From Phycisphaerae bacterium (GTDB taxonomy: Bacteria; Planctomycetota; Phycisphaerae; Sedimentisphaerales; SM23-30): a stretch of DNA of 64,000 nt. The notes under the pieces were generated by a model. The model was not told the DNA's origin and searched no databases. It was given only the letters and a program-made list of their open reading frames with translations. Made by a program: the position numbers and the translations under genes. The number at the start of each line of letters is the position of its first letter. Positions within the stretch are counted from its first letter, which is position 1. The stretch covers positions 1 through 64,000 of the forward strand of contig JAEIOG010000013.1 in assembly GCA_016342495.1 (NCBI GenBank), read 5' to 3'. This document shows, piece after piece, positions 9,218 through 19,021 of the stretch.

Positions 9218-10159
9218 TTAGTTACCTAAGTAAGTATCTTCTTTACGGAAGCCAGCACCAAATTCCATAGTGGCAGATGTAGTAGTATTCCAGCCACCAA
9301 CCCACATGCCAAGACTATCTGCAGAAGTCCAGCCAGTAAAGATATTATCCTGAGCTGTGCCAACACAAGGATTGTCATGACGTTTTACATGCATGTCATT
9401 AAACAATACATTTTGAATTTCTTTTGAATGGTTATTAGAATTACCACCAAGATATTCAACTCCACCAACAACTCCGCCTTCCCATTTAATGAGGGTAGGA
9501 TCCATATCACCGCTTGCAGCAGTAACTGAAGCAGGATCAACAACACCAATTGGATTTGGACCATAGGCAGTATTGTAACTAAAGTCAGTAGTATCAAAAA
9601 CTGGGCTTTTATCGGCCATCAGAACCATAGAAGATGAATCACTGGAATCGATAGGACGATTCCAAGGATCGTTATAAGAGAAACTCAGATTCCCAGCACC
9701 ATAAAAGTCCTGCATCTGAGTCCAGTCTTCCAAAGTTCCACCAAAACCAGCACTGCAGTCATTGAAATCCATTTCAGTATCATCTGAGCTTGGACAAAGG
9801 AAAACCTTTGGATCCAAACCAGCATATTTAACAAGCAGATAAAGTGATGTTGCAGCTGTTCCTAAACCAGTATCTTTAAGACCCTGTTCAGTCATAATAT
9901 ATGCAGCATTGTTATCACCTTCCATGCCCATACCGAAACTTGCCAAAGTTGAAAGGCCAACTACCGGATAAGCATCCCGGTAATCCTGAGAGTACAAAGC
10001 GATGCCAAGACCTATCTGGCGTATATTACTGCCACACTGTACACGTTTTGCTAACTCGCGAGCACGAGCCAGCGCTGGCATCAGGATAGATACCAACAAA
10101 GCGATGATAGCGATAACTACCAACAACTCAATCAAAGTAAAACCTCTTTTATTCTTCAT
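9218..10159 (-). CDS. planctomycete-type secreted pseudopilin (prepilin N-terminus, H-X9-DG-type C-terminus)
   Basis: A 313-aa protein beginning [20 protein letters not shown], a type IV prepilin/type II secretion pseudopilin leader with cleavage expected before F7. A hydrophobic helix and [20 protein letters not shown] follow, the pattern seen in the very numerous pseudopilin-like proteins of planctomycetes. The C-terminus has a degenerate version of the H-X9-DG box ([15 protein letters not shown]). The frame is open further upstream to 10267, but GGAGGA eight bases before the ATG at 10159 fixes the start. It is a single transcription unit with its own terminator. The role of such proteins is unknown; assembly at the cell surface is inferred from the leader. 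Confidence 0.9.
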
Positions 10160-10598
10160 ACCTATTCCTCCGAGAAAAGGTGTAAAACTATTAAGGCTCA
10201 GGTCAAAAAAATGATATACTGCATAATAGCAATTGGCTCCAACACAGAACCAATATCCTAAGCCCACTATCGGTTATATTTGCTTTAAATATACAAATAT
10301 CCAGCAAAACCGGACAAAATGTATCAGGCATGTTAATCAGGCGTGAATAGCATACAACCCCCAAGAGGGATCCACAGGTGCAAAACCTACATAATGCGCT
10401 GTATCCACATATTAATTGTATCACATATATGGACTATGTCAATAACAAATACCAAAAATTATACGCAATGTGATGGGCCGTCCTAATTACACAAATACTT
10501 AATTTATAAATATTTACGAATCTGGTTAGAAAAAAAATATTTGCCATACACAAAAAAATATAGTTTTAACAGCAAACTTATTAGGGTAAAATACTGAC
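10160..10598. other. intergenic region between divergent pseudopilin and flippase genes
   Basis: About 440 bases with no convincing gene. The part next to 10159 carries the pseudopilin Shine-Dalgarno (GGAGGA on the minus strand). The rest is AT-rich, especially 10490-10570, and must hold promoters for both divergent genes. I could not pick a confident -35/-10 pair. Short open frames here look like chance. Confidence 0.5.
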
Positions 10599-14462: not shown

Positions 14463-14491
14463 TTGACTTCCAATACCCTAATCACTATAAT
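14463..14491 (+). promoter_or_regulatory. sigma70-type promoter for the caspase-like gene
   Basis: TTGACT at 14463-14468 and TATAAT at 14486-14491 are separated by exactly 17 bases, the best housekeeping-type promoter seen in the window. It lies 65 bases before the start codon of the caspase-like gene. Confidence 0.8.
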
Positions 14492-14555
14492 GATTTATTG
14501 TTAAGTTTTCTGCCGTTCTGGTAGAACTATCAAAGGAGTATTGCTCGACTAAAAA

Positions 14556-16256
14556 ATGCTCGTTTTTTTGCTAAAATCAATGCCTTTGGAGCGTTTGATG
14601 TCTTTTTGGAAAATGTTGTCAAAATTTATTGCAGGTGATAAATCCCAGAAAGTCCCATTTGAGACCTTGAAGCTGGAAAAACTGGAGAATCGCCAACTGC
14701 TTACAGTCATTATCGATGACCCTTCAAGTTCGCTCAGAAAAGCAATGGACATTTCTATTGATTCAGACGATCAGAACGAATTTTCATTCCAGAGCAAAAT
14801 CGATAAAGCTCGTGACAAGGATTCTTATTGCTTTATCGCCCCTGCTGATGGATTAATGTCGATAAATATGAATTCGGCAGTTTCCCGCTCATTTAATGCC
14901 CTTGACCCCACTTTGACTGTTTATGACTATAAAAAACGTAAAATTGGTTTCAATGATGACATATCAACTTTTATTCAGAACGCTAACGTGGATTTTTATG
15001 TTCATCAAGGGCAACAATATTACATAAAAGCTCAGGGATGGCGTAGTTCCTTTGGGGATTATGAGCTGACAATCACCGCACCTGATGGCAATTCACAGTT
15101 GTTTGATATGCCTGACGATGCCAACAAAATAAAAAATGCGGCCAACATCGTTTCAGAGGGGTCAAAGACTGAAGTTTTTGTCGGAGTATACCCGGCCAAA
15201 GACAAAGATTACTTTAGCTATACCGCCAAATCGGATAGCACCTTAACAATCACAATTGATACATCAAGCTCGCCATTAAATTCATATCTATATGTTTACA
15301 ATAACCGTAAAAAAATCGTTGCTAAAAATTTAGACAAACAAGCCACTTTAGAATCTACCGTCACAATCGAAGTCGAAAAAGATCAGCAATTCTTTATTCG
15401 AGTTAATGGCTATAAAAAAAGCATAGGTACCTACAATCTCATTATCGAAGAAACTCCTGCCAATAAGCCCGAAACTACCGATCCTGATAATCTTGATGAA
15501 GGTAACAGCACTAACTCCAATGCCAATGACCCTGACATTCAGGGCTATGCAGTATCATTTAGTGCCTGGGATTATCCAGGAAGAGATAATGATATTGCCG
15601 GGCCTAAAACCGATAGTTACATAATAAAAAAATTATTGCGTGATGGCTTTAACTTCGATACCGAAAACATCCATATCAATTCTGGCGGAGCAAATCAGGT
15701 CAATGCCAACACTGTAGAATCTGAAATCGGTTGGCTTGCCTCAAAAGCGGATTCAAACGACATTGCGGTTATTCACTATTCAGGCCATGGCCTCGAAGGA
15801 GATTCAATTAGCTCAGATGATGAAGAATCCCTACTGCTTCCCGATAGCACTGGAATATACCAGCAAGATTTGGAAAGAATGATTGGCTCAATCAACCCTG
15901 AAACTACAAAAATCATCTTGATCGACAGTTGCTTTGCCGGTGGTCTGACCGATATAGCTAATAATATCCCAAATGCCTATGTTTTAGCTTCGGCAGAATA
16001 TAATCAGTATGCCTGGGATGAAGTACCGCCCTATTACCCATCAAATAATTATAATGGCGGCAGCATCTTTATGAACTGGCTTGCACAAGGCATCCTATCT
16101 AAAGATGCCGATGCCAACGATAATGGCATGGTCAGTTTATTTGAAGCATTTAACTATACAGACCAGAATGTTAATCTAGCCACCGGGACCGGAAATGACA
16201 ATCAGAATCCTGTTATACAATCTCCTATAACCGACCTGGAAATACTGCTGGCTTAA
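14556..16256 (+). CDS. secreted caspase-like (clan CD) peptidase with LEPR-XLL-type motif and two PPC-like domains
   Basis: A 566-aa protein. Residues 40-49 read LEKLENRQLL, the planctomycete LEPR-XLL-type sorting motif, after a basic N-terminus. Two beta-rich repeats follow (about 75-175 and 205-297), each with the YYIKAQGW..FGDYELTI / FFIRVNGY..IGTYNLII signature of bacterial pre-peptidase C-terminal domains. A low-complexity linker leads to a caspase-like domain (about 328-566) with the His-Cys dyad H411 (HYSGHG) and C459 (DSCFAGG). The closest known group is bacterial metacaspase/C14-like peptidases. Starts at 14580 and 14598 are also possible; AAAGGAG at about 14532-14537 is far from all of them. 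It has its own promoter. The substrate is unknown. Confidence 0.85.
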   Translation: MLVFLLKSMPLERLMSFWKMLSKFIAGDKSQKVPFETLKLEKLENRQLLTVIIDDPSSSLRKAMDISIDSDDQNEFSFQSKIDKARDKDSYCFIAPADGLMSINMNSAVSRSFNALDPTLTVYDYKKRKIGFNDDISTFIQNANVDFYVHQGQQYYIKAQGWRSSFGDYELTITAPDGNSQLFDMPDDANKIKNAANIVSEGSKTEVFVGVYPAKDKDYFSYTAKSDSTLTITIDTSSSPLNSYLYVYNNRKKIVAKNLDKQATLESTVTIEVEKDQQFFIRVNGYKKSIGTYNLIIEETPANKPETTDPDNLDEGNSTNSNANDPDIQGYAVSFSAWDYPGRDNDIAGPKTDSYIIKKLLRDGFNFDTENIHINSGGANQVNANTVESEIGWLASKADSNDIAVIHYSGHGLEGDSISSDDEESLLLPDSTGIYQQDLERMIGSINPETTKIILIDSCFAGGLTDIANNIPNAYVLASAEYNQYAWDEVPPYYPSNNYNGGSIFMNWLAQGILSKDADANDNGMVSLFEAFNYTDQNVNLATGTGNDNQNPVIQSPITDLEILLA

Positions 16257-18875: not shown

Positions 18876-19021
18876 CACGCTACAACAGGTTAGTAGGTGA
18901 GTACAAAGCATATGGCATTTTGTTGATTTAACCCTCAACTTTCAATTGACAAACCATACTCCTCTGATATAATTCTATTTATCATTTTCCAACTGTTTGT
19001 TTCATTGTGAAAGTCATTAGA

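Follow-up and report, generated by a model that had tools for sequence, protein, structure and literature searches.

Bacterial relatives of caspases have mostly been discussed as enzymes of cell death and signalling. Gingipain and clostripain are extracellular, and pre-peptidase C-terminal (PPC) domains, which are typical of exported proteins, occur as accessory domains in secreted proteases from several peptidase families. In the portion available of PMC4357240, gingipain (C25) and clostripain (C11) appear as Arg/Lys-specific, Ca2+-linked cysteine peptidases of clan CD, the same clan as the protein described here and different families from it. A 2012 survey placed 30 of 671 prokaryotic metacaspases outside the cell and gave a dyad conservation of 64% in Planctomycetes (PMC3501461, in its accessible part). 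Published work describes the LEPR-XLL motif as a signal for the export of surface proteins; passages on Tuwongella immobilis list it in 52 genes, 20 of whose products were detected (eight solely in the SDS fraction), and in eight of the ten longest proteins (PMC8567305). Literature searches, which mostly did not extend to subscription papers, found no link between LEPR-XLL and caspases and no paper pairing the terms "pre-peptidase C-terminal" and metacaspase. We analyzed a 64,000-nt stretch of a Phycisphaerae genome (order Sedimentisphaerales; hereafter the window), in which a caspase-related protein of 566 aa bears a planctomycete cell-surface address (Table 1). With moderate confidence, we read this protein as a surface-held processing protease of the C14 fold that is exported through its LEPR-XLL-like N-terminus, anchored by PPC domains and acts in trans on surface proteins after Arg or Lys. 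Confirmation would mean that some prokaryotic caspases serve as extracellular processing proteases, closer in role to gingipains than to enzymes of apoptosis, and would give the LEPR-XLL set a defined, assayable enzyme.

Table 1. Features of the caspase gene and its upstream region (window positions).
Feature	Position	Strand	Evidence
Sigma-70-like promoter candidate, TTGACT-17-TATAAT	14463..14491	+	11/12 consensus positions; intergenic gap upstream of the ORF
ORF, 566 aa	14556..16256	+	ORF listing; alternative start 14598 gives 552 aa
LEPR-XLL-like motif LEKLENRQLL, aa 40-49	14673..14702	+	Motif search; PF07595 sub-threshold
PPC-like beta-sandwich 1, ~aa 75-174	14778..15077	+	Model strands; family profile
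PPC-like beta-sandwich 2, ~aa 204-301	15165..15458	+	Pfam, family profile, structure model
Peptidase_C14 caspase domain, aa 331-559	15546..16232	+	Pfam E 3.3e-17; 63.4 bits against cut-off 21.4
Asp353, predicted S1-pocket acid (TbMCA2 Asp95 position)	15612..15614	+	Alignment, 18/18; putative equivalence
His411 (SGHG), catalytic dyad	15786..15788	+	18/18 aligned rows
Asp457, predicted S1-pocket acid (TbMCA2 Asp211 / AtMC4 Asp137 position)	15924..15926	+	18/18 rows
Cys459 (DSCFAGG), catalytic dyad	15930..15932	+	18/18 aligned rows
EF-hand-like loop D-A-N-D-N-G-M-V-S-L-F-E, aa 519-530	16110..16145	+	Kept in both orthologues: DTSQNGIISLQE, DTNSDGKVSFGE

The N-terminal string LEKLENRQLL, which a first-pass annotation had called a LEPR-XLL-type motif, is present and matches LExLExRxLL. 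Searching the genome DNA (5.42 Mb) with this degenerate pattern returned six exact sites, compared with two for a backwards control. Five of the six, including that of the 566-aa ORF, lie 23-62 residues past an upstream stop in ORFs of 422 aa or more. For the sixth (L158), the locus end is at most 93 residues away with no intervening stop, and an N-terminal position is likely as well. Sites with one mismatch were also N-terminal at four loci (L165, L170, L173, and L174) and not so at eight others, in a tally that leaves out L167 and L171. The pattern marks N-termini in its own genome and exceeds chance. We term the motif LEPR-XLL-like because the Pfam model PF07595 (Planc_extracel) stays below its cut-off on the 566-aa protein (13.3 bits, or 17.9 bits in the genome search, against 25.5) and because the RRL lead of the published consensus RRLxxExLExRxLLA is absent, KVPFETLK preceding the motif instead. 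Its main support comes from the orthologue L088, whose N-terminus (MEKRKRNSSLLLEFLEPRILLSAN) shows a textbook LEPR-XLL motif in the same place; PF07595 reported no match on L088 at E ≤ 0.1. With the LEPR-XLL/PF07595 surface proteins of Rhodopirellula and Tuwongella, the 566-aa protein shares the N-terminal LxLExLExRxLL string, which is also found on long ORFs of its own genome. It differs from them in the missing RRL lead and the sub-threshold score, and in being small and enzymatic, whereas the typical members are giant adhesins. One could also regard LEKLENRQLL as a chance string on a cytoplasmic signalling caspase, as the PF07595 score and the absence of a classical Sec signal by the heuristic used would allow. 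We consider this highly unlikely, given the textbook motif at the same place in L088, the N-terminal position of five of the six exact sites in the genome (with the sixth near a locus end), and the presence of PPC domains, which are typical of exported proteins. Among the long ORFs of the genome is one of 6133 aa (L314, contig C17, 105-18503) with a LEPR-XLL motif, many CARDB repeats, and HYDIN-like Ig domains; an open frame of 12 376 aa (L020/L170, contig C132, ~44000, minus strand) has the LEPR-like string IEPLEPRVLL in its N-terminal part.

The two PPC-like beta domains proposed on first reading were recovered as two beta-sandwiches in a separate structure model of aa 1-326 (pLDDT 66.8), the first with the same strand order as the second. 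The second sandwich superimposed on the collagen-binding domain of a collagenase (5iku, Z 16.0, rmsd 2.1, 111 residues) and on 5sv5, titled pre-peptidase C-terminal domain (Z 12.9). The family profile matched class I collagenase binding domains at E 0.003-0.005. Pfam PPC (PF04151) alone is weak on the 566-aa protein, with one stretch below the cut-off (E 9.7e-4, 20.4 bits against 25.9), and finds two stretches above the cut-off in L088 (27.1 bits). A family-built profile, whose seeds included these very domains, detects both. Four PPC-like domains related to those of the 566-aa protein occur in the 6133-aa ORF (~aa 4971-5436), in which the Pfam model reported no PPC. The kinship of these folds with substrate-binding domains of collagenases, together with the company that PPC domains keep with secreted proteases of several peptidase families, would suit a secreted nutritional or scavenging protease. 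Its PPC domains would bind an external polymer or protein and its caspase domain would degrade environmental protein, leaving the cell's own surface unprocessed. Extracellular protein degradation by metacaspases has been suggested in Betaproteobacteria (PMC4933709, in its accessible part). We regard scavenging as possible, if doubtful, in view of the predicted specificity and the narrow distribution given below.

A structure model built from 18 sequences (mean pLDDT 75.8) exceeded 90 over much of the caspase core and fell below 50 at residues 30-63, the motif region. The modelled caspase part aligned best with Arabidopsis metacaspase 4 (AtMC4; 6w8r_B, Z 24.7, rmsd 3.0, 224 residues), followed by legumains and caspases at Z 21-22, and the family profile matched AtMC4 at E 4.4e-35. 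Gingipain and clostripain gave no visible sequence match and are absent from the structure listings, an absence compatible with kinship. As regards a possible p10 domain, the C14 match reaches position 229 of the 233 in the profile, and the model aligns up to AtMC4 residue 421. Peptidase_C13 scored below its cut-off on the 566-aa protein (20.5 against 22.8 bits) and above it on the two orthologues (35.4 and 36.6 bits); C14 scored higher still in all three. Membership of the EACC1-type caspases was not accepted (31.4 bits against a cut-off of 140). The residue numbers first given for an intact caspase dyad, His411 and Cys459, are exact, and both orthologues keep the His and the Cys, the loss of which had been named in advance as evidence against the proposal.

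The residues around the active site allow a specificity to be predicted. A role in the S1 pocket is described for Asp95 and Asp211 of T. brucei MCA2 (TbMCA2; PMC4357240), and in AtMC4 the residues Asp137 and Ser84 line the pocket that holds Lys225 (PMC7206013), both according to the accessible parts of these papers. D457 and S409 of the 566-aa protein align with AtMC4 Asp137 and Ser84, and Ser409 is invariant in 17 of the 18 aligned sequences. From the invariance of D353 and D457 in all 18, with equivalences read by hand from the alignments, cleavage after Arg/Lys and not after Asp is predicted. The acidic p10 side of the pocket is not conserved, since D488/E489 are G/Y in the orthologues. If real, such a narrow specificity would be unusual for the bulk degrader that scavenging implies. 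Compared with metacaspases and orthocaspases (C14B: Arabidopsis metacaspase 4, T. brucei MCA2, and bacterial GSU0716), the 566-aa protein shares the whole-domain caspase fold, the His/Cys dyad, and the p20 S1 acids. It differs from them in its putative LEPR-XLL-like export signal, its two PPC domains, an EF-hand-like loop near the C-terminus, and the loss of most of the MCA2 Ca2+ site.

That loss is visible in the whole family. By positions mapped by hand through Yca1 and AtMC4 alignments, the MCA2 Ca2+ ligands D173, D189, D190, and D220 correspond to E423, Q436, Q437, and D466 in the 566-aa protein, which thus lacks the four-Asp site, and to mostly non-acidic residues in the orthologues (N/E/S/S and N/E/L/Q). 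Activation via the usual metacaspase Ca2+ site was therefore rejected. All three members of the family retain the EF-hand-like loop (D519-x-N-x-N-G-x-V-S-x-x-E530). Counted on a smaller locus set before the census described below was enlarged, a strict EF-hand-like pattern follows the caspase Cys in 7 of 19 class ORFs, 4 of 74 named-genome ORFs, and 0 of 19 phylum ORFs (reversed controls all 0). One published paper mentions caspases, EF-hands, and prokaryotic metacaspases together, and the loop may already have been described. These features permit a location-gated variant, in which the protease would be inert in the Ca2+-poor cytoplasm, become active once LEPR-XLL export has brought it into a Ca2+-rich environment, and there mature the other LEPR-XLL giants of the genome. 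The variant draws on the mostly lost metacaspase Ca2+ site, the loop retained in the C-terminal (p10) half, and the binding of Ca2+ by the PPC fold in collagenases; the 566-aa protein also shares PPC modules with one such giant (L314). We consider it unlikely in this specific form.

Orthologues with the full architecture were found in two genomes. In a profile search of 59 relatives, eight matched at E ≤ 1e-5, the source genome among them, and apart from the gene itself those of G008 and G003 alone span both the PPC and the caspase parts, the others covering one part only. At the level of the order, the full profile matched 4 of 161 genomes at E ≤ 1e-20. The caspase domain is included in the source genome, G008, and G003, and the fourth genome (G009) contributes the PPC part only, within a 3436-aa ORF. 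When each species was represented by a single genome (GTDB 220), scanning gave 68 loci. The only close ones are L088 and L089 (Sedimentisphaerales bacterium), whose proteins are identical with those of G008 and G003 and share 35% and 32% identity with the 566-aa protein. L089 is cut by a contig end at its 5' side, and the N-terminus is readable in L088 only. Occurrence in just 3 of the 161 genomes of the order further speaks against a scavenging role.

To place the protein among its relatives, we assembled a census of 246 non-redundant caspase ORFs, comprising 115 from a phylum-wide PF00656 ranking, 43 from a class-level profile search, and 88 from named genomes. PF00656 matches 141 of 392 planctomycete genomes, and the phylum set was drawn from the top of that ranking (about 110 of the best ~150 rows) and is not a random sample. 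A Sec-like signal precedes the first domain in 68/115 phylum, 33/43 class, and 43/88 named-genome ORFs, against shuffling expectations of 24.4, 11.4, and 9.9, respectively. The signal was called by a home-made, shuffle-controlled heuristic and not by SignalP, and some lipoproteins are labelled plain Sec by it. The excess in the phylum set suggests that exported caspases are common, even ordinary, in Planctomycetota. The contrast drawn by the first-pass annotation between this gene and cytoplasmic or signalling bacterial caspases was therefore overstated, the more so as extracellular members already figured in the 2012 survey; its reading of the 566-aa protein as exported stands as the best one. 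Only two of the 246 ORFs, the gene itself and L088, have a LEPR-type motif ahead of the caspase domain. Two further class candidates (L178 and L179) were rejected, as their regex matches are internal to subtilisin-like regions. The 566-aa protein is thus a rare version of a kind of caspase that is common in the phylum.

Other architectures surfaced during the survey. Giant proteins of the same order (L306/L176 in G047, L307/L177 in G706, L308 in G746, and L179 in G743; 2000-6900 aa) join a subtilisin-like region to a caspase-like domain in which the Cys motif was not found by pattern. The two of these with a readable start show a Sec-like N-terminus and, by eye, beta-helix-like repeats. The source genome itself encodes a second caspase-domain ORF (L002, contig C155, 1348-3282) with a Sec-like start and an STHG/DACR dyad; its C-terminal part looks FGE-sulfatase-like by eye, and it adjoins a subtilisin-like ORF.

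Fusions of PPC and caspase domains extend beyond this family. A PPC profile, built from the family plus L115 and L142 and hence liable to miss distant PPC domains, picks out 22 ORFs, or 16 once redundancy is removed, from Planctomycetota, Gemmatimonadota, Rhodothermota, and one uncultured lineage. PPC precedes the caspase domain in every one of them, and the profile detected none in the 115-ORF phylum set. Where the 5' end is closed, 14 of 15 carry an export signal, which is of LEPR type in 2 and Sec-like or a lipobox in 12 and differs among lineages. The exception, L065, starts 110 bases into its contig, with the first PPC at residue 4. A DxC motif was not shown by pattern in 2 of the 16 (L092 and L097). 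We inferred a tree from 88 of the 214 usable caspase domains (all 16 PPC-linked ones, the 30 best-scoring others, and 14 drawn at random from each of the three sets), using a quick method with a single model and SH-aLRT only. On it, the 566-aa protein groups with its two orthologues in a starred clade (98). The PPC label changes five times on this tree, with at least four changes forced by starred branches, compared with 14.9 for shuffled labels, so the joining of PPC and caspase domains was recurrent or was repeatedly lost. The census thus suggests four or more origins or re-assortments of such fusions, almost all of which carry an export signal. The PPC-caspase lipoproteins of Gemmatimonadota and Rhodothermales (L098, L138, L146, and L142) and the planctomycete Sec-exported L183 share with the 566-aa protein one to five PPC domains directly before the caspase domain, and an export signal. 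They differ in that this signal is Sec or lipobox and not LEPR-XLL, and on the caspase tree they branch separately. Among the sequences aligned or scanned, those of the Gemmatimonadota/Rhodothermales branch also retain acidic residues where MCA2 has Asp189/Asp190, and have no EF-hand-like loop.

The genomic context names no substrate, since neighbours differ between loci. The 566-aa ORF is preceded by glycosyltransferases and a polysaccharide flippase-like gene, and is followed by a Gcw_chp-like ORF (sub-threshold) on the opposite strand and a GHMP kinase. L088 is flanked, as judged by eye, by RNase R-like and DUF456-like ORFs, unlike the window. A conserved operon partner was rejected, as the neighbours of L088, L089, and the window all differ. 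The protein could instead be a displayed cell-death or kin-killing (fratricide) protease, or a caspase of phage defence. Surface or fratricidal roles for extracellular prokaryotic metacaspases are raised in the accessible part of the 2012 survey (PMC3501461), and PADLOC reported a weak caspase match (E 3.1e-4). We nevertheless consider this group of roles very unlikely: Pfam recognized no defence or immunity gene among the 13 neighbours scanned (of the other 43 window ORFs of at least 150 aa, all 13 within 1563-23916), and an exported protease would be poorly sited for abortive infection. A search of plasmid records gave no match, and among viral contigs two distant loci only (L315 and L316) were returned. 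These are caspase-like relatives on contigs classed as viral, that of L316 being IMG/VR contig 3300032156_000001 (188 kb).

Taken with its N-terminal surface tag, the two PPC domains make it probable that the 566-aa protein cuts proteins outside the cell and has no cell-death role inside. In the processing reading that we favour, the LEPR-XLL-like N-terminus would export the protein by the route of the giant surface proteins of its own genome, and the PPC domains would then, by analogy with related PPC domains, tether it to a polymer of the surface or to a substrate. Cleavage of exported or foreign proteins after Arg or Lys would fall to the C-terminal caspase domain, with its His411/Cys459 dyad and the acids D353 and D457. 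Action in trans on several surface proteins, in the manner of gingipain or clostripain and not in a death pathway, appears most likely because no partner gene is tied to the 566-aa protein. An extracellular processing or envelope role, as proposed at the outset, is accordingly kept in the form of an exported, probably surface-bound peptidase; the argument from the promoter fails.

The first-pass annotation had called TTGACT-17-TATAAT the strongest promoter in the window. Across the window there are one 12/12 site and three 11/12 sites, the 14463 site being among the three, against 0.05 and 2.65 expected by chance per window in first-order Markov sequence. The 12/12 site at 18946 surpasses it, and since three 11/12 sites were found where 2.65 are expected, the 14463 site is a candidate only. 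It is plausible as a suitably placed promoter, without being the strongest, and was rejected as a sign of strong expression. The start codon is likewise uncertain: ATG 14556 has AGGAG 17 nt upstream, and ATG 14598 (residue 15) follows the better-spaced GGAG (14588-14591) at 6 nt, a start that would put LEKLENRQLL at residue 26. Elsewhere in the window, the perfect site (TTGACA-16-TATAAT, 18946-18973) lies just upstream of an AAA_14/DUF4143 ORF at 19007, and an N_methyl/DUF1559 pilin-like ORF (9221-10267, minus strand) stands beside the polysaccharide genes.
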